A stretch of DNA of 64,000 bases, taken from NCBI GenBank assembly GCA_001796335.1, contig MGMF01000023.1, forward strand, positions 1 to 64,000, given 5' to 3'. Position numbers and translations under genes: made by a program. Positions 3,171 to 26,680 of the stretch are shown here, one piece after another. The number at the start of each line of letters is the position of its first letter. Within the stretch, counting starts at the first letter, position 1. The notes under the pieces are model-generated. The model saw only the letters and a program-made list of their open reading frames with translations. It did no database searches and was not told the DNA's origin. Source of the DNA: Chloroflexi bacterium GWB2_49_20 (GTDB taxonomy: Bacteria > Chloroflexota > Anaerolineae > Anaerolineales > Villigracilaceae).

Positions 3171-4772
3171 CTATTCATCTGGTTGGCGTACAATCTTGGT
3201 AACTGCTGAACCATTTGGAAGAGCTATCACAACCAGACCATCTTTGGTCATGGTTCCTTCGTAAGGCAATTCGCCAGCATGGGCAACCCACCCGCTCAAA
3301 TTAAAAGGCAATGGACCATCAGCAAGAGCCCATTCGCCATTGAATTTCCTGGCAAAATGAAAATGTGTTCCAGTAGACGGACCACCTTCACATGAAGGGT
3401 GGCCGATACGATCATCTATATTTAACAAAGTACCCTTTGGAACACGATCTACTTCAGCAATATGGAGATAAAGCAAATCCCAACCGGTTTGTTCATATCC
3501 ATCGTTATCCAGGTCGAGGATCACGATGCCATTTCCGGAGCGAACCACCTGACCGGAGGCTGCCGCCAGCACCCAGGATTCGGATTCATAGCAACCCCTC
3601 TGGTCAGCTCCAGGCGCAAAGTCGAGTGCTGCCAGAGCTCCTCGTTTTTCAAAGGCTGAGTGCGGTCCTCCGGAAAGGCTCCACGTTTCACCTGGTGAAA
3701 ATGGTAAATTGAGGGGTGGTTGGGTAAGACCGGGAGGAAACAAGGGTTCCACTTTTTGAGCACGCGCCCATGGGTCTCCGAACATGTTTTCATATAATTT
3801 CATAAAACCTGCGTTTGGATCAATAATCGCCAACCAATCCGAATAATTATTGTGTTTTGAGAAAAAATATAAGATTGCCACTGTGCCTGCATTCAAATCG
3901 GGCGCAATCCTAACTTTTTTACCATCCGTAAATGTTAATTCAGATAATTGTCCAATTCTCCATCCGTAATAACCTAAACTTAAATCTTCGGAAGCTAACA
4001 TGAATTGCCGAAATAATCCAACATAATAAAGATCAACATACCCCAGCGGATAATCGTTATCTTCCAGGTTCCTGGGTTGACCAGTTACCCAGCCACTCTC
4101 GTACTCTAACAAAGCTAAAAGTAAACGAGGATTAATTGAGTTTTCAATGGCTATGCGTTTTACACCTTCAATCCCGGAAGTCATACCAGTGCTCCCAAGA
4201 TATTCTTTAAATTGGTTCAAATAACCCTCTGCAGCAGCTACATAGCTAGAAACATCGAAATCGATTGCGGATGGAGAAAAAACAACTTCGCTATCCGGCA
4301 TGATTTGGATAGATGAGGTCATTTCTCCATTTAATACATTCGGAATTATCATTAATGTGTTTGGGTTTATTAAACCCGCTTCCGGTAATTCCACTTCTGC
4401 CAGGATATCAGTGACATCAACGCCGAAATGACGTGCGACAGCAGGTAGACTATCACCGGGTAGAGAATAATAGAGTACGTTAGGAATATCTGTACCCATT
4501 AATTCGGTGGAAGTACTTGTTGCTTCAGTAGCCACATGCGAAGGTGTAAACGTAGGAGTTAAAGTTGGTATCAAAGAGGCATCAACTGTAATCGTAGGTG
4601 TGTAAACAATTGCCGTTTTCGTCCTTTCAGTTGTTGGTATTGCGGTATATTGCTCGGTTGCCAATAACCTGGATGTTCCCCATAATGGACTACATGCTGG
4701 TAATAAAGAAATCTCAAGAAACAATGCGAATAGATAGAAATAATGCCTGGATGAATTCATTATGTACTTCAT
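3171..4772 (-). CDS. LysM + M23 peptidase lipoprotein, paralogue B
   Basis: 533-aa paralogue with lipobox LPAC (C27) and a Thr/Ser/Pro-rich linker at about residues 40-85. A LysM-like repeat contains LPGDSLPAVARHFGV. The middle helical domain contains INPRLLLALLEYESGW, reminiscent of lytic-transglycosylase helices with a Glu-Ser pair. The C-terminal M23 domain has GGPHSAFEKRG...ALDFAPG and GTHFHFARK, plus the acidic loop DLDNDGYEQTGW. The start may be ATG 4772 or ATG 4760. A TATAAT on the minus strand (4781-4786) ends only 8 nt before ATG 4772, so the mRNA may be leaderless. It probably acts on the cell wall from the outer face of the membrane. Confidence 0.88.
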   Translation of the reverse strand: MKYIMNSSRHYFYLFALFLEISLLPACSPLWGTSRLLATEQYTAIPTTERTKTAIVYTPTITVDASLIPTLTPTFTPSHVATEATSTSTELMGTDIPNVLYYSLPGDSLPAVARHFGVDVTDILAEVELPEAGLINPNTLMIIPNVLNGEMTSSIQIMPDSEVVFSPSAIDFDVSSYVAAAEGYLNQFKEYLGSTGMTSGIEGVKRIAIENSINPRLLLALLEYESGWVTGQPRNLEDNDYPLGYVDLYYVGLFRQFMLASEDLSLGYYGWRIGQLSELTFTDGKKVRIAPDLNAGTVAILYFFSKHNNYSDWLAIIDPNAGFMKLYENMFGDPWARAQKVEPLFPPGLTQPPLNLPFSPGETWSLSGGPHSAFEKRGALAALDFAPGADQRGCYESESWVLAAASGQVVRSGNGIVILDLDNDGYEQTGWDLLYLHIAEVDRVPKGTLLNIDDRIGHPSCEGGPSTGTHFHFARKFNGEWALADGPLPFNLSGWVAHAGELPYEGTMTKDGLVVIALPNGSAVTKIVRQPDE

Positions 4773-4801: not shown

Positions 4802-6334
4802 TCATCTTTGAATTTGATTTATTGGATTATTTCCATCGTATGCTTCAACAATCTGATTATTTCGTGTAAGAAAGCCATCATACTCAACACCTGCGCCAGA
4901 TGAAATCCATCCATCTAAAATAAATGGTACCGATCCATCTGCAGCGATCCACTCTCCATTAAACCGCCTGGCCAGATGCACATGAGTCCCATTGGAAACA
5001 CCTCCCTCACACGATGGATGACCTATTCTTTCACCAGTCTCTAAATAAGTCCCCGCAGTAATTCTATCATTGCTGTCAATATGCATATACAACACACTCC
5101 AGCCTGTTTGCTCAAACCCATCTCCGTCCAGATCCTGGATCACTGCTCCATTTTCTGCCCTAACAATCATTCCATCGGCAACTGCGGTAACCCAAGCATT
5201 ACTTATTACACAACCTTGAGCTTCACCTGGAGGTGCAAAATCAATTGCTGCCCATGCTGAGCCAGAGTCCCAACCGCCGTGGGGTCCTCCGGTAAATGCC
5301 CAAACCTGCTCTTTTTCAAATGGTAAAGTCATTTCCGGCTGAATAAGATTTCCGGGGACTAGGGGCTCAATTGCTAAATCAAAAGGATACCCAAAAAGGT
5401 TGTTGTATAAAGGGAAAAAACCTTCCGGGGATACATCCGCTCTCCAGTTAGTATAATTATCAAGATTTGCAAATAGAAATTGAACTGCTGCTGTTCCTGG
5501 ATTAATAGTCGGGGCTAATGGAACTAAGAGGCCATCAGTCATCACTGCATTCGGTAATCCATCAATCTTCCAGAGATAATAACCACGATTCAGTGTATCA
5601 GCTGCCCAGGTTAATTGCCGGTACAAGCCATTATGCCAGTTATCCTGTAATCCAAGAGGGTAATCCAAGGTATTCTCAGCAGGTTGAGGATTTGTCAGCC
5701 AGCCTGAACGATATTCCAATACCGCCAATAAGAGACGTGGGTTTACTGAATAATTTTGTGAAACCAAGTTGATTATTTGTGCCCCGTTCAGGTTGTTTCC
5801 ATCAACATCCTCGCGATAATAGGATAAATAACCAGCATATTTTTGAATATATCCACCTAAATCAAAAGTTATGCTCATTGGTCCATAAACCAGTTCGGAA
5901 TCAGGGATAATTTTAAATGTTGTACCGGTTTCTTGAGGCGATGGTTGTGGTATCACAAGAATTTGGCCTGCGTACAAAGTATTTGAATCAATCAAACCAT
6001 TAGCCTGCATTAATGAATCCAGACTAATGAGGTACTGACGAGCAATATCACTAAGGGTATCGCCAGGTTGCACAGTATATTGCTCTGGTCCGGAACGTTG
6101 GGTTGGCATTGTACGCGGATTGTCAGGAGTTGGAGTCAAAATAGGCGAACCAGGTAACCTGGTTGGCGGAAATTGAAATGAAGGTATCGAAGTCATACCA
6201 CTTGAAATAATCGCTGTTGGATAGGTTACTGCTGAGCCTGGCATCCATTCAGGAGACTCTGGTGCAGAACGAACACATCCTGCTAGAATAAAGGCTATTC
6301 CACTAATCACATTTAGAAGATATGATTTACGCAT
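4802..6334 (-). CDS. LysM + M23 peptidase lipoprotein, paralogue C
   Basis: 510-aa paralogue, first of the three in transcription order. The lipobox is LAGC (C20). It has the best LysM of the set (QYTVQPGDTLSDIARQYLIS, about residues 85-130). A middle helical domain contains VNPRLLLAVLEYRSGW. The M23 domain carries GGPHGGWDSG, AAIDFAPP and GTHVHLARR, plus the acidic loop DLDGDGFEQTGW. All three genes keep the same domain order and the unusual acidic loop, so they arose by tandem duplication. This copy is 29 bp upstream of paralogue B. Divergent fdhD begins 106 bp away. Confidence 0.9.
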   Translation of the reverse strand: MRKSYLLNVISGIAFILAGCVRSAPESPEWMPGSAVTYPTAIISSGMTSIPSFQFPPTRLPGSPILTPTPDNPRTMPTQRSGPEQYTVQPGDTLSDIARQYLISLDSLMQANGLIDSNTLYAGQILVIPQPSPQETGTTFKIIPDSELVYGPMSITFDLGGYIQKYAGYLSYYREDVDGNNLNGAQIINLVSQNYSVNPRLLLAVLEYRSGWLTNPQPAENTLDYPLGLQDNWHNGLYRQLTWAADTLNRGYYLWKIDGLPNAVMTDGLLVPLAPTINPGTAAVQFLFANLDNYTNWRADVSPEGFFPLYNNLFGYPFDLAIEPLVPGNLIQPEMTLPFEKEQVWAFTGGPHGGWDSGSAWAAIDFAPPGEAQGCVISNAWVTAVADGMIVRAENGAVIQDLDGDGFEQTGWSVLYMHIDSNDRITAGTYLETGERIGHPSCEGGVSNGTHVHLARRFNGEWIAADGSVPFILDGWISSGAGVEYDGFLTRNNQIVEAYDGNNPINQIQR

Positions 6335-19076: not shown

Positions 19077-20216
19077 TTGAAATACATTGAAGAATACCGC
19101 GATGCTTACCTCACACAAAAACTATTAAAAGATTTAAGAAGCATTCTAACTCGCGATTGGATTCTAATGGAAGTCTGTGGCGGGCAGACTCATTCGATCA
19201 TCAAATCCGGCCTCGATCAACTTCTTCCTAAAGAAATCAACCTGGTGCATGGACCAGGTTGTCCGGTATGCGTGACTCCGCTTGAGTTAATTGACAAAGC
19301 AATTGCATTGGCGTCCCGTCGCGATGTGATCTTCACATCCTTTGGGGATATGTTACGGGTACCTGGTTCAAGCAGCGATCTCTTCGCTGTAAAAGCGGCT
19401 GGTGGCGATGTGCGCATCCTTTATTCCCCGCTGGATTCCCTCAAAATTGCCCGTGAAAATCCAGATAAAACTGTTGTATTCTTTGGGATAGGATTTGAAA
19501 CCACAGCTCCCCCCAACGCCATGGCTGTTGTTCAAGCCCAGGTTCAGGGAATAAACAACTTCGCCATGCTGGTTTCACATGTGACAGTGCCGGCTGCCAT
19601 TATTGCACTCATGGAGTCTCCTGACGTTAAGGTGGATGGGTTTCTTGCTGCTGGTCATGTTTGTACGGTTATGGGCTACTGGGAATATGAACCTCTTGCC
19701 CAAAAATATAAAATTCCCATCGTCGTCACCGGGTTCGAACCAGTGGATATTGTCCACGGCATTCTGAAATGCGTTCGACAGTTGGAAGGTGACAGGTATT
19801 ATGTTGAGAATGCATATGCCCGTTCTGTGATTCGGGAAGGGAATCGCCCTGCCCAGGCAGTGATCCAACGGGTTTTTGAGTTATGTGACCGCCCATGGCG
19901 CGGCATAGGTGTAATTCCTCAATCTGGTTATCGCTTGCGCCCGGAATTCGCAGAATTTGATGCTGAGTTGCGATTTCCCGAAATACAGTCGATCGAAACA
20001 AAAGAATCCGATTTATGTATTAGTGGCCTGGTTCTGCAGGGCAGAAAGAAACCGCATGAATGCATGGCCTTTGGAAAGGAATGTACCCCTCAGACGCCTC
20101 TTGGAGCCACCATGGTTTCAACCGAGGGTGCATGTGCAGCATATTACAGGTATGGACGGTACGCGGATGCAAACCGGAGAATAGATGGAGACAAATGGCT
20201 GAAAAACCCAATCTAA
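19077..20216 (+). CDS. hypD: HypD, Fe(CN)2CO assembly scaffold
   Basis: 379-aa Fe-S protein. Conserved motifs include [40 protein letters not shown] and [13 protein letters not shown]. With HypC it holds iron while CN and CO ligands are attached. The start codon appears to be TTG at 19077 (TTG AAA TAC ATT), with a weak AAGG about 7 nt upstream. There is no in-frame ATG near the expected N terminus. It overlaps hypE by 22 bp. Confidence 0.93.
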
Positions 20217-21274
20217 TTGGATGGACTTGTCCGAGACCTCTTCAGAATTATCCCACCATCGTGCTTGGTCACGGTTCTGGCGGAAAAATGATGGCCGATT
20301 TGATCCAGCACCTTTTTTCTCCTGCCTTTGAAAACGATTTACTTGGACAAATGAACGACTCTACTACGCTTGATTTGACAGAAACATTTCAATCAATCCC
20401 ATCAAACCGCCTGGCTTTTACAACAGATTCTTTTGTAGTAAGTCCTTTGTTCTTCCCAGGAGGAAACATTGGTGAGCTGGCCATTTTTGGCACTATCAAC
20501 GACCTCGCCATGAGCGGGGCAAAACCACTCTTTCTTTCAGCTGGTTTTATTTTGGAAGAAGGTTTACCCATGGAGATGCTTGGGAAAATCGTTAATTCCA
20601 TGGCTGTCGCCTGCAAATTTGGTGGAGTAAAGATTGCTGCCGGCGATACCAAAGTGGTCAACCGGGGACATGGGGATGGCTTGTATATAAACACATCAGG
20701 AATTGGGGTCATCCCGGATGGTATCAATATCTCTGCAAAATATGCCCGACCAGGTGATGTTGTCCTGATCAATGGCAGTGTTGGCGACCATGGTATGGCA
20801 ATCATGTCTGTGCGCTCCGGACTGGAATTTGAGACAGCTATTAAGAGTGATACAGCCCCTCTCAATGGTTTGGTGGATTCAATGCTTGAGGTCACACACG
20901 AGATCCATTGCTTACGGGATGCCACCCGCGGTGGATTGGCTGCGGTTCTTAATGAATTGGCAACCGCATCCAATGTTGGCATTGAATTCGATGAAAAAGC
21001 CGTCCCGATCCTGCCAGAGGTTAATGCTGCCTGTGAAATGTTGGGGCTTGACCCATTCTATATCGCCAATGAAGGAAAATTTGTTGTTGTGATGCCAGAA
21101 GCAAAAGCTGAAGAAGTTTTATTTGTTATGCGCAAGCATCCGTACGGGAAAGACGCAGCCATCATCGGAAAGGTTGTTGAAAATCATCCCGGTTTGGTAA
21201 CAGCCCGCACCTCCATCGGAGGCATGCGCGTGGTGGATTTACCTGCCGGCGAGCTTTTGCCAAGGATTTGTTGA
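20195..21274 (+). CDS. hypE: HypE, carbamoyl-dehydrating cyanide-donor protein
   Basis: 359 aa, AIRS/PurM-like ATPase. Conserved segments are [46 protein letters not shown] and the C-terminal PRIC whose last Cys carries the thiocyanate group. The start is ATG 20195 behind ATGGAG. The open frame extends upstream inside hypD, but the family begins near here. HypE is normally charged by HypF, and no hypF is in the window. It is convergent with the next gene, 2 bp apart. Confidence 0.93.
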
Positions 21275-22220: not shown

Positions 22221-23081
22221 TCAATCGCCTAAACATGGCAAATAATAATAGTTCTTTTGTTGTTCGTATCGATCGAAATCCCCGGCAAGGAACCCCGCCT
22301 GTCTAAGCATTTCCAATACTTTAATAATAATTTCCGGGTTCCAGCGGAAAAGTTTTTGAACTTCCCTTTTATCGGATGCACCCATCGATAAAAAATAATA
22401 TTCCATCAATTTTCTGCGCGCTTCCCACTCCCCAATTAAACGCGCCTTATCCGGCAAGTAAGGATAATGGCGCGATGTCAAATCGTAAATAAATGCGTAT
22501 TTCCATGTCCCTGCTTCCGCCACGCCGACCGGTAAAATCCTGAATTCAGCCTGCAATTTTTCAAGCGCCCGGTTAAAACCGCTTTCACTGGCCTTTCCGG
22601 CCAGGCGGGCAGCCTGCCGCAACTCAATTGTGTGCATGGGACCATTGTTGAGAATCACTTCATAAATTAATTTTTCTGCAAAGGTCAGATGTCCTTCCTG
22701 GTAAGCTATCAGGTAATCTTCATCAGGTGAACCAAAATTTTCGGATAATGCATAAAATAGAGGGAGCACATCCAGAGAGATAAATGTTGCTTTATAACGC
22801 AGGACCTTGGCATAATACCATATATGTTTTCCAAGGGCGGAGTCTTTCCAACTCCAGGTCACATGACCGGGGTCATCATGCACACTCGGAACCGGTCGAT
22901 CGCCTGCAACTGCAGTCCACAAGCTTGGAAATGGTGCGCCTTTAACCGGCCAGAAAAATATAAATCCTCTTTGATTCACATAATCCAATGCCTGCTCTGG
23001 ATTTCTTATTCGAGCTTCATCATTCAGGCGAAATGTCTCCGCTCGGTAATTGTTAACCGACTTCATCTCAAGAGTTGACAA
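22221..23081 (-). CDS. AlkZ/YcaQ-like winged-helix protein (putative DNA glycosylase)
   Basis: 286 aa. The sequence resembles the HTH_42/AlkZ family: an N-terminal block ALDYVNQRGFIFFWP, a central segment around LPLFYALSE, and winged-helix segments near MHTIELRQAARLAG and SGFNRALEKLQAEF. AlkZ members unhook crosslinks or alkylated bases. I do not see the catalytic QxQ or QxD motif of characterised enzymes with confidence, so this may be a divergent or non-catalytic member. It overlaps the small upstream ORF by 19 bp. Confidence 0.55.
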   Translation of the reverse strand: MSTLEMKSVNNYRAETFRLNDEARIRNPEQALDYVNQRGFIFFWPVKGAPFPSLWTAVAGDRPVPSVHDDPGHVTWSWKDSALGKHIWYYAKVLRYKATFISLDVLPLFYALSENFGSPDEDYLIAYQEGHLTFAEKLIYEVILNNGPMHTIELRQAARLAGKASESGFNRALEKLQAEFRILPVGVAEAGTWKYAFIYDLTSRHYPYLPDKARLIGEWEARRKLMEYYFLSMGASDKREVQKLFRWNPEIIIKVLEMLRQAGFLAGDFDRYEQQKNYYYLPCLGD

Positions 23082-23338: not shown

Positions 23339-24625
23339 TTACCAGCGAAATACAAGTGCCAACACTGTAACAACAGACGCGATCAATATCATCATCGAAA
23401 AGATGGTGGAAAAATATTTTTGAAAAGCATTGTTTGCATGCTCTCCCATTATTTTTTTACTGTTGGTTAGTCTAATTAAATAATAAAATACCAAAGGTAG
23501 TACCATTGCATTAAGGCTTTGTGTCGCAATTGCCATCTGGAATAAGGTTATTCCTGGGATTGTGATCAATAATGCTGCCAGCAGAAGTTGCGCCATGAAT
23601 AGAATATAAAATGTCTTACTCTGACTGTAGTCAGTATCCAGGCTTCCAGAAAGACCAAAAAATTCTGAAAAAGCATAAGCAGTGGATAACGGAACGATAA
23701 TCAAACCCATAAATGCAGCCGCAAGGATGCCATACGCAAATAAGGTTCCCGCTAATTGCCCCGCAAATGGTTGGATTGCCAAGGCTGCCTGCTCTCCCGA
23801 CTCTAATTTGATTCCGTTAACAAAAAGAGTGGAAGCGGTAGCTGTGATCATAAAAAATGAAAAAAAGTCGGTTAAGAACGCACCCCAATAAGTTTCCAAT
23901 TGTGACAATTTTATGGTATCCGCCTCCATCTTCTTATCGAAGGCAAAACTACTGATAAAGAATTGACCCCATGGTGTTATGGTGGTTCCTAACACACCCA
24001 TCCCAATTATTAAATAATTTCGGATATATGCATGGGTCCATTCCACACCATGCGGATAAAAAAGATTGCTCACGGCCAATCCCCAGTCAGGGTGGGCTTT
24101 AACTGCTGATATTATATAAACGATATAAAACAGGGAGACCAGCAACATAATGTTCTGGGTCAGTTTATAGTTGCCTCTGGTAATAAATAAAAAAGCCAAT
24201 AGCAATATGCCAACCACAAACATCACCGGTGGTATTTTTAACATACTGCTTGTTGTTTTAATAGCCGACAGCTCTACTGTAATGGTTCCCAGGTTAGCGA
24301 TCAGGAGACCCAAAAATATAAAAACGGATACCTTTACGCCAAACTTTTCACGGATGAGATCAGCCAGACCTCGCCGGGTTACCAAGGTCAAGCGCATGCC
24401 CATTTCTTGAGTCACACCCAGTAAGATTGTTATAAACATAAGAGAAAACAGGATGGGGTATCCAAGGGTTGCACCAGCTATGGAGTAGGTTGCAACGCCG
24501 CCCGCGTCATTATCAGCCATGGCTGTAATTGTTGCTGGCCCAAATACAGACAGAAGCAATACAATACGACGCAACCGGGGATGATTAAGCCATTTCTCCC
24601 GATATATTTTCAAAAACTTGCTCAT
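23339..24625 (-). CDS. Divergent NRAMP-family divalent metal transporter (candidate Mg2+ type)
   Basis: 428 aa, about 11 predicted membrane helices with the NRAMP (SLC11) fold. The TM1 metal motif is DNDAGG (D38-G43) instead of DPGN. The TM6 motif is TTITPWGQFF instead of the Met-Pro-His of Mn/Fe transporters, so the soft Met ligand is missing. That departure suggests hard-ion selectivity such as Mg2+. The gene is coupled by an ATGA overlap to an MgtE-like regulatory protein, and both lie downstream of an M-box Mg2+ riboswitch. Mg2+ transport is therefore a strong inference. Mn2+ or another metal remains possible. Confidence 0.85.
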   Translation of the reverse strand: MSKFLKIYREKWLNHPRLRRIVLLLSVFGPATITAMADNDAGGVATYSIAGATLGYPILFSLMFITILLGVTQEMGMRLTLVTRRGLADLIREKFGVKVSVFIFLGLLIANLGTITVELSAIKTTSSMLKIPPVMFVVGILLLAFLFITRGNYKLTQNIMLLVSLFYIVYIISAVKAHPDWGLAVSNLFYPHGVEWTHAYIRNYLIIGMGVLGTTITPWGQFFISSFAFDKKMEADTIKLSQLETYWGAFLTDFFSFFMITATASTLFVNGIKLESGEQAALAIQPFAGQLAGTLFAYGILAAAFMGLIIVPLSTAYAFSEFFGLSGSLDTDYSQSKTFYILFMAQLLLAALLITIPGITLFQMAIATQSLNAMVLPLVFYYLIRLTNSKKIMGEHANNAFQKYFSTIFSMMILIASVVTVLALVFRW

Positions 24626-25887
24626 TTGAGAGTTCCAAAGAACCGCGGTAAGCGCTTCTTCCAGGCAGTCGGGATGATTTTATCCAAGGCATCATCCGCA
24701 GTGACAATCCCGTGCAAGCAATCTTGATCATCGACTACAGGAACAGCCAACAAGTTATATTTCGAGACAACTTGGGCAACTTCATCTTGATCATCTTTCA
24801 AATTTACACTGACGACTCTTTTATGCATGAATTCAGTTACATTTACATTTGGCTGAGCCATGATGAGATCGCTTAGTGAAAATACACCGATCAAGTGATT
24901 TTCTTCATCTGTGACATAGACATAATAGATCAACTCAGCCTCTTCGCCTATTTCACGCAAAGTACATATGACCTGTTCAGCTGTCAAACCTGGATGAATA
25001 GATACATAGTCCGTTGTCATCAGGCCACCTGCCGATTCCTCGTGAAAAAGCAGGAGCTTGCGCACATCCTTCGCATCTTCATCTTCCATCAACCCAAGCA
25101 GGTTTTCGCTTCGCTGTGCCGGTAATTCTGCCAGGAGATCTGCTGCTTCGTCCGGAGACATCTCTTCCAGCAAGTCTGCTACTTTTTCATCGGACATGCT
25201 CTTTACAAGACTGGCCTGGTAATCAGGTTCAATTTCTTCAAGCGTATCTGCCAACTGCTTTAGATCCAGATTATCAAGAAATTGATCGGTATCCGTCTGG
25301 CTTAACTCACTTATGATTTCCGCCAGGTCGGATGGGTGTAATTCCGCCAATTTATCTTTAGGAACTTTGAGGCGCATGGATTTATCATGCCGCAGGAGTT
25401 CAACAAAATCCCATGAGATAAATCCTCGGTTTAAGTCACGCTTGAACAGAGGCAAAATAAATCGGGAAAGTTTTGACAATCCAATTCGCCTCAAGATGCC
25501 CGATGTGCCTACATCGACATTACTGACAACAATGTGTGCATTTACTCTGACCAATTCGATATCGTTAACTCGCACAACTCGCGCACCATCTATGTCGATG
25601 ATTTGCTTGTCCAGAACATCTTCGCCAAGCAGAATATCATCTTCATTGGTTGTATAGTCATGAATTTTTCCTTTTTTTTGTCTAAGCGAAATGGCAGCAG
25701 CCAGTAGAACAACCACTTCAATAAAAGGAATTATTATTTGTTCTTCCTTAAATTTAACCACGATCGCATCTATTACGGGATGCTTAAAATCTTTATGAGT
25801 GCGGGCAATAAGATCTTTTAAAACCCCAATTTGTGTCCCGTCTATGTCGGTAACCGGTTTTCCGATAAGTTCACTAATAAAGGCCAT
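24622..25887 (-). CDS. Soluble PRC-barrel / MgtE N-domain / CBS-pair protein
   Basis: 421 aa. There are two PRC-barrel-like segments (about residues 1-75 starting LIGKPVTDIDGTQIGVLKD, and 85-150). An MgtE N-domain superhelix covers about 190-290 (LHPSDLAEIISEL, MSPDEAADLLAELP). A CBS pair covers about 300-415 (ESAGGLMTTDYVSI, NLLAVPVVDDQDCLHGIVT). In MgtE channels these parts sense cytosolic Mg2+ and gate the pore. Here the MgtE membrane domain is absent and the next gene encodes an NRAMP-type transporter. The start is ATG 25887 behind GGAGGTGAG, because an upstream start at 25917 falls in a terminator stem. Confidence 0.88.
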   Translation of the reverse strand: MAFISELIGKPVTDIDGTQIGVLKDLIARTHKDFKHPVIDAIVVKFKEEQIIIPFIEVVVLLAAAISLRQKKGKIHDYTTNEDDILLGEDVLDKQIIDIDGARVVRVNDIELVRVNAHIVVSNVDVGTSGILRRIGLSKLSRFILPLFKRDLNRGFISWDFVELLRHDKSMRLKVPKDKLAELHPSDLAEIISELSQTDTDQFLDNLDLKQLADTLEEIEPDYQASLVKSMSDEKVADLLEEMSPDEAADLLAELPAQRSENLLGLMEDEDAKDVRKLLLFHEESAGGLMTTDYVSIHPGLTAEQVICTLREIGEEAELIYYVYVTDEENHLIGVFSLSDLIMAQPNVNVTEFMHKRVVSVNLKDDQDEVAQVVSKYNLLAVPVVDDQDCLHGIVTADDALDKIIPTAWKKRLPRFFGTLK

Positions 25888-25906
25888 ACTCACCTCCAGG
25901 GTATAT

Positions 25907-25938
25907 AAAAAAAACACCTTCGTATTTTCCCGAAGGTG
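25907..25938 (-). terminator. Intrinsic terminator between leader ORF and MgtE-like gene
   Basis: On the minus strand an 8-bp perfect stem CACCTTCG/CGAAGGTG (25931-25938 with 25915-25922) closes an 8-nt loop. It is followed by eight U residues (25907-25914). It lies 20 bp upstream of the MgtE-like start and 38 bp after the leader ORF stop. It could be the attenuator through which the M-box or the leader peptide controls the operon. Confidence 0.8.
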
Positions 25939-25975
25939 ACGTATGTCAGTGACCTGATAAACTCATGCATTTTAC

Positions 25976-26110
25976 TTATGCAAATAAATTATGCATTAGT
26001 GTGCGTTCGCGCTTAATCGCATTATCTGCCGATAACTGAGCTGGTCGACCCTCAAGAATATTGGATAAATGGTACTCATCAACCTGTTTTGGACTATCAC
26101 TTGCGTCCAC
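25976..26110 (-). CDS. 44-codon leader ORF downstream of M-box
   Basis: Not previously listed as an ORF because of its length. On the minus strand a GTG at 26110 follows AAAGGAGGTGATC, a perfect match to the 16S anti-Shine-Dalgarno, with 6 nt spacing. The reading frame runs 44 codons to TAA at 25976. The product begins MDASDSPKQVDEYHLSNIL and ends TLMHNLFA: hydrophilic, no membrane helix, few prolines. Such a strong ribosome site is unusual in this window. It sits between the Mg2+ riboswitch and a terminator, so it may be a regulatory leader peptide or a small protein of the transporter. Confidence 0.6.
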   Translation of the reverse strand: MDASDSPKQVDEYHLSNILEGRPAQLSADNAIKRERTLMHNLFA

Positions 26111-26245
26111 GCGATCACCTCCTTTCGACTGCATTTTTATAACCTACTCATTTCAATTATAAATTTCTTTTATAAAAATCATTCAGCCACATTGACCAAG
26201 GAGACTACTACCGGCTATGCATCGAAAATTATATTGCATACCATC

Positions 26246-26405
26246 AACCTCACTGGTATAGTTTTGGCAATGTCCACCGTAGGGAGCTTCCCAGCCGCAT
26301 TGAGCAAGACCTTGATTCGGTCCCACCTTTTATACTACCTTGGCGTCTCTCGACGGTTCGGACCAGAGGCTTTTGCTCAAGCAAACGCCTCGCCTAACGA
26401 GGGTC
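26246..26405 (-). ncRNA. M-box (ykoK) magnesium riboswitch
   Basis: On the minus strand the leader opens with CCTCGTTAGGCGAGGC (from about 26402), the M-box 5' signature. GTCCGAACCGTCGAGAGACGCCAA follows in two adjoining blocks, then AATGCGGCTGG. All occur in the order known from the B. subtilis mgtE leader. The 3' GAGG (26248-26251) can close helix P1 with the 5' CCTC (26399-26402). The aptamer compacts when Mg2+ is abundant and lowers expression of Mg2+ transport genes. It lies about 360 nt upstream of the MgtE-like/NRAMP pair and directly after a good sigma70 promoter. Confidence 0.88.
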
Positions 26406-26418
26406 TATTATTGCGCGT

Positions 26419-26447
26419 AATATACACCAGCCCTGAGTATTCGTCAA
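26419..26447 (-). promoter_or_regulatory. Sigma70-type promoter for the M-box transcript
   Basis: Minus strand: -35 TTGACG (26442-26447), 17-bp spacer, -10 TATATT (26419-26424). The predicted start is near 26412, a few nucleotides before the first conserved M-box bases. Confidence 0.75.
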
Positions 26448-26552: not shown

Positions 26553-26606
26553 TCATTTCTGTTGTAAAAATAAGCTGCCGATCTTATTTGATCAACTGTT
26601 AGATAG

Positions 26607-26680
26607 TCGGGGCGGGCGGATTCGAACCGCCGACCTCACGGTCCCGAACCGTGCGCTCTACCGGGCTGAGCCACGCCCCG
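26607..26680 (-). tRNA. tRNA-Pro (anticodon CGG)
   Basis: The cloverleaf is readable on the minus strand. The acceptor stem is CGGGGCG/CGCCCCG with discriminator A. The D-arm has GGCTCAGCCCGGTAGAGC. The anticodon stem CACGG/CCGTG encloses the loop TTCGGGA (anticodon CGG at 26644-26646, reading CCG). The T-arm contains GGTTCGAATCC. The 3' CCA is not encoded. Terminator-like hairpins flank it on both sides. Confidence 0.95.

Follow-up and report, generated by a model that had tools for sequence, protein, structure and literature searches.

Operons in which an M-box Mg2+ riboswitch precedes NRAMP-related genes ('mgtE-nramp' operons) have been described before. There, the carrier, named NrmT, was shown to transport Mg2+, an MgtE-like gene adjoined most NrmT genes, and a role in cytoplasmic feedback was proposed for the sensor that it encodes (Shin et al. 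2014, PMC4072509). Mg2+ importers can also stand behind a short leader: on E. coli MgtL (MEPDP...), ribosomes drop off at low Mg2+, a behaviour that is lost when E2 and D4 are changed (PMC11282234). Here, we describe a locus in a 64,000-nucleotide (nt) stretch of Chloroflexi bacterium GWB2_49_20 (assembly GCA_001796335.1, contig MGMF01000023.1, positions 1 to 64,000; hereafter the window), in which an M-box is followed by a leader open reading frame (ORF), a terminator and genes for a soluble MgtE-type sensor and an NRAMP-fold carrier. The operon arrangement itself was published in 2014; what is apparently new, and undescribed to the extent searched, is the conserved acidic leader together with the terminator behind it. 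We lean, by a narrow measure, towards the leader being a nascent-chain Mg2+ attenuator that would work alone or in tandem with the M-box, and we consider this the best overall explanation of the locus.

Read along the minus strand, the operon runs from promoter-like hexamers through the M-box, the leader ORF and an intrinsic terminator to the sensor gene and then the carrier gene. It shares with the operons of Shin et al. (PMC4072509) an M-box, a separate gene for the MgtE N-terminal domain and an NRAMP-related Mg2+ carrier, with the MgtE-like gene and NrmT adjoining on one strand. We are almost certain that the locus represents the M-box/NrmT operon class in Chloroflexota: a Mg2+-uptake unit, presumably switched on at low Mg2+, in which an NRMT carrier is paired with a cytosolic sensor of the MgtE type that has been detached from its channel. 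It differs in phylum, the members named by Shin et al. being mostly Clostridia and Deltaproteobacteria; in the leader ORF and second terminator, which the accessible part of their paper does not mention; and in missing T1, the intrinsic terminator that is the usual output of an M-box.

The leader ORF is the most unusual part of the locus. An earlier note, made from the sequence alone, had named this ORF and gone no further; we located it at positions 26110-25976 (minus strand), where it has a GTG start and encodes 44 residues, (M)DASDSPKQVDEYHLSNILEGRPAQLSADNAIKRERTLMHNLFA. Its place, its Shine-Dalgarno (SD) sequence and its acidic N-terminus are common to relatives. The extended SD, GAAAGGAGGTGATC (26126-26113, minus strand), is a 14-nt complement of the 3' end of the organism's own 16S rRNA, matching the tail GGATCACCTCCTTTCT of the 16S gene; a match of this unusual length would keep initiation from being limiting.

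A short ORF recurs at ~195-276 nt before the sensor gene in many relatives. Leader starts include MDADGSKSS (L096), LDADDHLL (L095, L235), VDADGIPL (L032, L034), MDEDNSNS, MDEDNSSS, METDSSNS, MDTDSSSS, MDSDGSNG, MDTDGSCS, MDSDGSSK and MEAESSSP, among others. Across Chloroflexota, a predicted short ORF starting M-D-x-D-x-S stands before many of the sensor genes and also before mgtA genes under M-box control. Of 28 leaders collected, a set gathered partly by acidity, 26 have an acidic residue at position 2 and 20 at position 4, and 16 have Ser at position 6. Two further measures are free of that selection. A strictly defined motif, with acidic residues at both 2 and 4 and a Ser between positions 5 and 9, was found in 16 of 84 sensor upstreams. 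Upstream of other long ORFs of these loci it was found in 4 of 359 cases (Fisher 2e-9), and three of these four control hits were themselves M-box leaders (L135/L212, L145). Dinucleotide-model shuffles gave an expectation of 0.5, compared with 10 of 59 observed. Many leaders end in Pro-Pro-stop: two consecutive prolines lie within five residues of the stop in 10 of the 84 sensor upstreams and 1 of the 359 controls. Searching 298 genomes for a DNA pattern of SD plus MDAD start yielded few sites, as the leader peptide varies, and at 3 mismatches many of these resembled chance matches; at mgtA genes without an M-box, we found no convincing leader.

Might the ORF instead encode a small protein that acts in trans, with the carrier as one possible target, and not be a cis-acting leader at all? 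Its start and size are conserved, and the authors of PMC12810186 consider such a role for M. tuberculosis Rv1805A, the small ORF behind the pe20 M-box. Conservation is limited, however, to about the first eight residues, beyond which the peptides diverge in length and make-up, and a terminator lies directly behind the leader. We regard a trans-acting protein as very unlikely.

At three further loci (L114, L115 and L116, from three genomes), the leader IDADHKS begins with ATA behind AGGAGGTGATCGC, making use of an AUA start codon possible. The sensor is present in these genomes, and no NRMT was detected at 1e-20.

An intrinsic terminator separates leader from sensor in 14 of 18 leader loci. In the window this terminator, T2, spans 25938-25907 (minus strand), the same position as in relatives; a hairpin at 25938-25915 with an 8-bp stem, CACCTTCG/CGAAGGTG, is followed by a T8 tail. 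At 13 loci outside the window clade, the segment of at most 32 nt behind the leader stop is complementary to the 5' arm of T2 (Stouffer z -4.7), whereas a comparison segment before the leader stop, taken over all loci, is not (Stouffer z -0.5). T2 of the window has its strongest competitor within the leader, at about codons 18-22, where ATTCTTGAGGGTCGACC can pair with GTCACCTTCGGGAAA (z -3.6, 0 of 200 shuffles), a pairing picked as the best of many. The leader SD was also considered as a general antiterminator against T2 and was rejected, as it is the best partner only in L096 and L235.

These features suggest how an attenuator of this kind could work. Ribosomes would start the leader at the very strong SD. 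With ample Mg2+, a ribosome would pass the acidic N-terminus (M-D-x-D) and finish the leader, T2 would form and the operon would be off. At low Mg2+, the ribosome would be destabilized at the acidic start, as at E2 and D4 of E. coli MgtL, and would drop off; leader RNA freed in this way would pair with the 5' arm of T2, and RNA polymerase would read through. Most relatives have the pairing strand immediately after the leader stop, where a ribosome slowed at what is often a Pro-Pro-stop would cover it and allow T2 to form, and one that fell off early would leave it free, which fits an operon kept off by plentiful Mg2+. For the window, T2 would find its best partner inside the leader instead.

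The likeness to the MgtL leader of mgtA in E. coli and Salmonella (PMC11282234) is that a small ORF, acidic near its start, precedes the gene for a Mg2+ importer and has transcription termination behind it; the acidic positions are those of MgtL, 2 and 4, in most relatives, and 2 and 5 in the window. The Chloroflexota leaders differ in having an intrinsic rather than a Rho-dependent terminator, in lacking the EPDP prolines, in being Ser-rich and often ending in Pro-Pro-stop, and in their phylum, and we claim no sequence homology. That Chloroflexota possess a leader-peptide family that senses Mg2+ through the ribosome and controls an intrinsic terminator before Mg2+ importers, alone or behind an M-box, as a convergent counterpart of MgtL, is a tentative generalization that we hold with rather less confidence than the attenuator at this locus.

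Several observations weigh against a nascent-chain attenuator and should be set beside those above. Acidic pairs alone had a weak effect in E. coli yellow fluorescent protein (YFP) constructs (PMC11282234), and the leader peptide starts without MgtL's prolines. The window leader has its acidic residues at 2 and 5 rather than at 2 and 4, and the consensus itself derives from leaders selected in part for acidity. Codon-position counts favour coding mildly and were taken from protein alignments, which bias them, so we did not rely on them as proof of coding. The leader is found in a minority of sensor loci, the others having no leader or terminator, and hence this operon type does not need one. 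Lastly, the predicted antiterminator is not the same in all clades: in that of the window, pairing of the post-stop segment with T2 is absent (z 0.2 to 1.4), and the mid-leader pairing proposed for the window is less certain, having been chosen from many candidates.

The M-box would supply a second Mg2+ input. The earlier note had claimed one at 26246-26405, and a covariance-model search confirmed it: the aptamer matched RF00380 at 26408-26242 (minus strand) over the full model (positions 1-169), scoring 90.9 bits where the gathering threshold is 44 (cmscan, E 1.2e-18). Membership of RF00380 does not require an expression platform behind the aptamer, and no T1 is recognizable in the window at 26241-26130 (minus strand), the stretch that holds it in relatives; all 11 of the other M-box loci that we examined have T1. 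The note's claim of control at the RNA level stands. We propose that the M-box responds to Mg2+ independently of the leader and is partly decayed in the window; because T1 is missing, RNA-level control may rest more on the leader and its terminator than on the M-box.

Comparison with other loci bears on the simplest alternative, that all Mg2+ control resides in the M-box, that the sensor feeds back on the carrier, and that the leader is incidental or a generic translation-coupled attenuator sensing ribosome traffic. Such an operon type is published (PMC4072509); the M-box is clearly present, and the extended SD could serve translation-coupled control of termination. In support of the leader-peptide attenuator, M-boxes also precede mgtA (L135, L136, L154), an NRMT-like carrier (L137), an ABC permease (L153) and an FtsX-type gene (L145), and at these loci the aptamer is followed by T1 within ~16-80 nt and by a leader at 110-193 nt. 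The second terminator is likewise found at the M-box loci L034, L135, L136, L153 and L154, and the genome G089 has an acidic leader both at its sensor operon (L096) and at its M-box mgtA (L154). Against the M-box-only alternative, T1 is the part that the window has lost, and in the three nearest relatives (G089, G233 and G516) we found no M-box at the operon, where the leader and T2 are kept. Conservation of the acidic N-terminus is far beyond chance, and a generic attenuator would not need acid. We therefore judge this explanation fairly unlikely.

A different arrangement is known from M. tuberculosis, where the pe20 M-box is likewise followed by a conserved small ORF, Rv1805A, homologues of which also occur without an M-box (PMC12810186). 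There, control involves an anti-SD platform and Rho, in contrast to the intrinsic T1 and T2 of the loci considered here, and the Rv1805A peptide, with a conserved Pro7, is reported to be specific to mycobacteria. By analogy, the M-box in the window might act on the leader through a translational (anti-SD) platform; the order of parts is the same, and a TCTCCTT stretch at ~26200-26206 can pair with the leader SD. Neither this pairing nor an alternative using a P1 strand was better than in shuffles (p 0.47 and 0.41, respectively), and we rejected an anti-SD switch joining the M-box to the leader in the window. Moreover, the same features are kept in leaders without any M-box. Such a platform is thus distinctly improbable. 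In the open-access literature, to which our search was largely confined (most subscription papers were outside its scope), the pe20 M-box with its conserved upstream ORF was the only match to a Mg2+ or M-box leader peptide with a terminator.

If the leader does act as a nascent-chain attenuator, a single transcript would carry an RNA sensor and a nascent-chain sensor and encode a protein sensor, all for the same ion. As far as the open-access literature shows, this would be the earliest reported case of an M-box attenuator working in tandem with one based on a peptide. It would offer a directly testable case for ribosome destabilization by an acidic nascent chain as a recurrent means of Mg2+ sensing outside Enterobacteria, read out by an intrinsic terminator. 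The natural series of M-box plus leader, decayed M-box plus leader, and leader alone would also allow one to ask how Mg2+ sensors replace each other.

A promoter had been proposed in front of the M-box. A suitable candidate, TTGACG-N17-TATATT (26447-26419, minus strand), lies ~10 nt before the aptamer, in a position that fits a transcription start just 5' of it; promoter-like hexamer matches are no commoner in the region than expected by chance (11 found, 10.8 expected). Similar hexamers, TTGACG...TATAGT or TTGACT...TATAAA, stand just 5' of the leader in L095 and L096.

We noted several other features of M-box loci. The M-boxes of L138, L139, L141, L143, L144, L146, L147, L148 and L153 precede a two-part ABC permease (PF00528 twice, ~580 residues) with an ATPase next, and at some of these Anaerolineae loci MgtC (PF02308) comes first; they are candidates for an M-box-controlled ABC importer, which is not a known class of Mg2+ transporter. 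At ~60-130 nt behind the M-boxes of L138, L146, L147 and L149, an SD-like GAGGTGAT is followed by ATGTGA or ATGTAA, a start codon with a stop codon next to it, at the place of the acidic leader in other M-box loci. L134 has two equal-scoring M-boxes in tandem (4227-4451 and 4843-5067, 616 nt apart) before an NRMT-sensor operon of reversed gene order, which may reflect duplication or an assembly artefact. Two tandem MgtE-like genes stand behind the M-box in L142 and L150. Upstream of the M-box in the window, on the same strand, is tRNA-Pro(CGG) (26606-26680); a tRNA likewise precedes the M-box in L032 and L034, and the synteny is thus common to all three loci.

The sensor gene (25887-24622, minus strand) runs from an ATG at 25887 to a stop at 24622 and encodes 421 residues. 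As the earlier note had described, its product is the sensing half of MgtE preceded by PRC barrels, with Pfam matches to PRC (1.8e-06), MgtE_N (4.2e-25) and two CBS domains (2.1e-19) and, in the same searches, none to the MgtE channel domain PF01769 and no membrane domain. Since PF01769 is absent from the protein and from the genome, the sensor is an MgtE sensor fragment, not an MgtE. An AlphaFold model (mean predicted local distance difference test score 83, predicted template-modelling score 0.50, leaving domain packing unsure) comprises two beta-barrels, the MgtE_N helical solenoid, the CBS pair and a poorly ordered C-terminal tail. A Foldseek comparison with the Mg2+-bound MgtE cytosolic domain (2yvy) gave a root-mean-square deviation of 1.6 A over 230 columns. 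The protein thus resembles the MgtE cytosolic domain (2yvy, 2zy9; 38% identity) in MgtE_N and the CBS pair, and differs from MgtE in the two PRC barrels in front and the lack of a membrane domain. The conserved tail carries the motif IIPTAWKKRLP; across 26 relatives, P406 of this motif never varies, and K410 and P414 hardly do. Because it is sited where the connecting helix of MgtE would lead to the channel, the tail is likely to be a contact to the carrier.

The carrier gene (24625-23339, minus strand) begins with an ATG that overlaps the sensor stop as ATGA, so translational coupling of the two genes is plausible, in line with the earlier note. The protein, of 428 residues and with the SLC11/NRAMP fold, matches Pfam Nramp at 6.5e-67, and its best solved relative is EleNRMT (7qia; E 3.5e-63, next chain 2e-20). 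At the positions of EleNRMT D55, G58, T224, A227, W229, E133 and Q379 it has D, G, T, T, W, E and Q. In the NRMT binding-site motif, helix 1 contributes DxxG and helix 6 contributes TxxA/T (PMC8806188). The metal motifs had been called non-canonical; they are in fact the standard NRMT signature, diagnostic of the known Mg2+ branch. The carrier has in common with EleNRMT this DxxG/Txx(A/T) site, Trp in place of His after it, and the equivalents of Glu133 and Gln379, and differs in TxxT for TxxA, in its distant sequence and in its coupling to a sensor gene. By its nearest solved relative and its DxxG/TxxT signature, the carrier is an NRMT, and Mg2+ transport is predicted.

The TxxT variant and the long branch of the window carrier clade leave some room for a carrier that mainly moves Mn2+, as does the fact that the A. 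capsulatum homologue, which has no M-box, rescued Mn2+ uptake (PMC4072509). This is nevertheless improbable given the M-box in front, the NRMT site signature and EleNRMT as best solved relative; moreover, the genome has a classical NRAMP elsewhere, separate from the operon (L001; site residues D N A M H). In the sensor tree the window clade is nested in the main Anaerolineae group, and in the carrier tree the same clade stands apart on a branch of 1.83. We do not claim a carrier swap, because the branch is long and a single row decided whether approximately unbiased (AU) tests returned p 0.03 or 0.12.

Whether the sensor gates this carrier, as the earlier note suggested, is plausible and not new, having been raised by Shin et al. 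(PMC4072509). NRMT directly adjoins the sensor in 38 of 43 fetched Chloroflexota sensor loci, which bears out the expected neighbourhood of channel-less sensor genes, and plasmids of Alicyclobacillus, Citrobacter and Leifsonia (Bacillota, Pseudomonadota and Actinomycetota, respectively) carry both genes together as well. These associations argue against a sensor that has another target, or that reports ATP/Mg2+ to another transporter. Two results in PMC4072509 keep gating short of certain: C. acetobutylicum NrmT carriers complemented a Mg2+-transport mutant without a sensor, and a co-expressed A. capsulatum sensor had no effect on rescue, the latter also speaking for another role. For such a role, too, three genomes of one genus (G099, G238 and G275) had no NRMT match at 1e-20, yet keep the sensor and leader, with an M-box in two; the sensor, as judged from gene content, therefore cannot act only on an adjacent NRMT. 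On balance, we consider it unlikely that the sensor does not gate its neighbour. Overall, what the earlier note had observed was confirmed, and its interpretation is supported in part.

The genome (3.37 Mb, 99% complete) has one M-box, one MgtE_N domain and one CorA; a Pfam search found no MgtE channel domain in it, and the mgtA of a related M-box locus had no counterpart at 1e-150. The operon thus probably encodes the importer through which Mg2+ uptake is regulated in this genome, and CorA would provide a second route. In a related mgtA context, a c-di-GMP-I riboswitch (RF03167) lies at 502-581 of L210, in the kilobase upstream of an mgtA-type gene and on the opposite strand. Downstream of the carrier in the window, an AlkZ-related protein (PF24741) is encoded at 22221-23081, and the ORFs at 19077-21274 resemble the hydrogenase maturation proteins HypD and HypE, from a reading of their translation alone.

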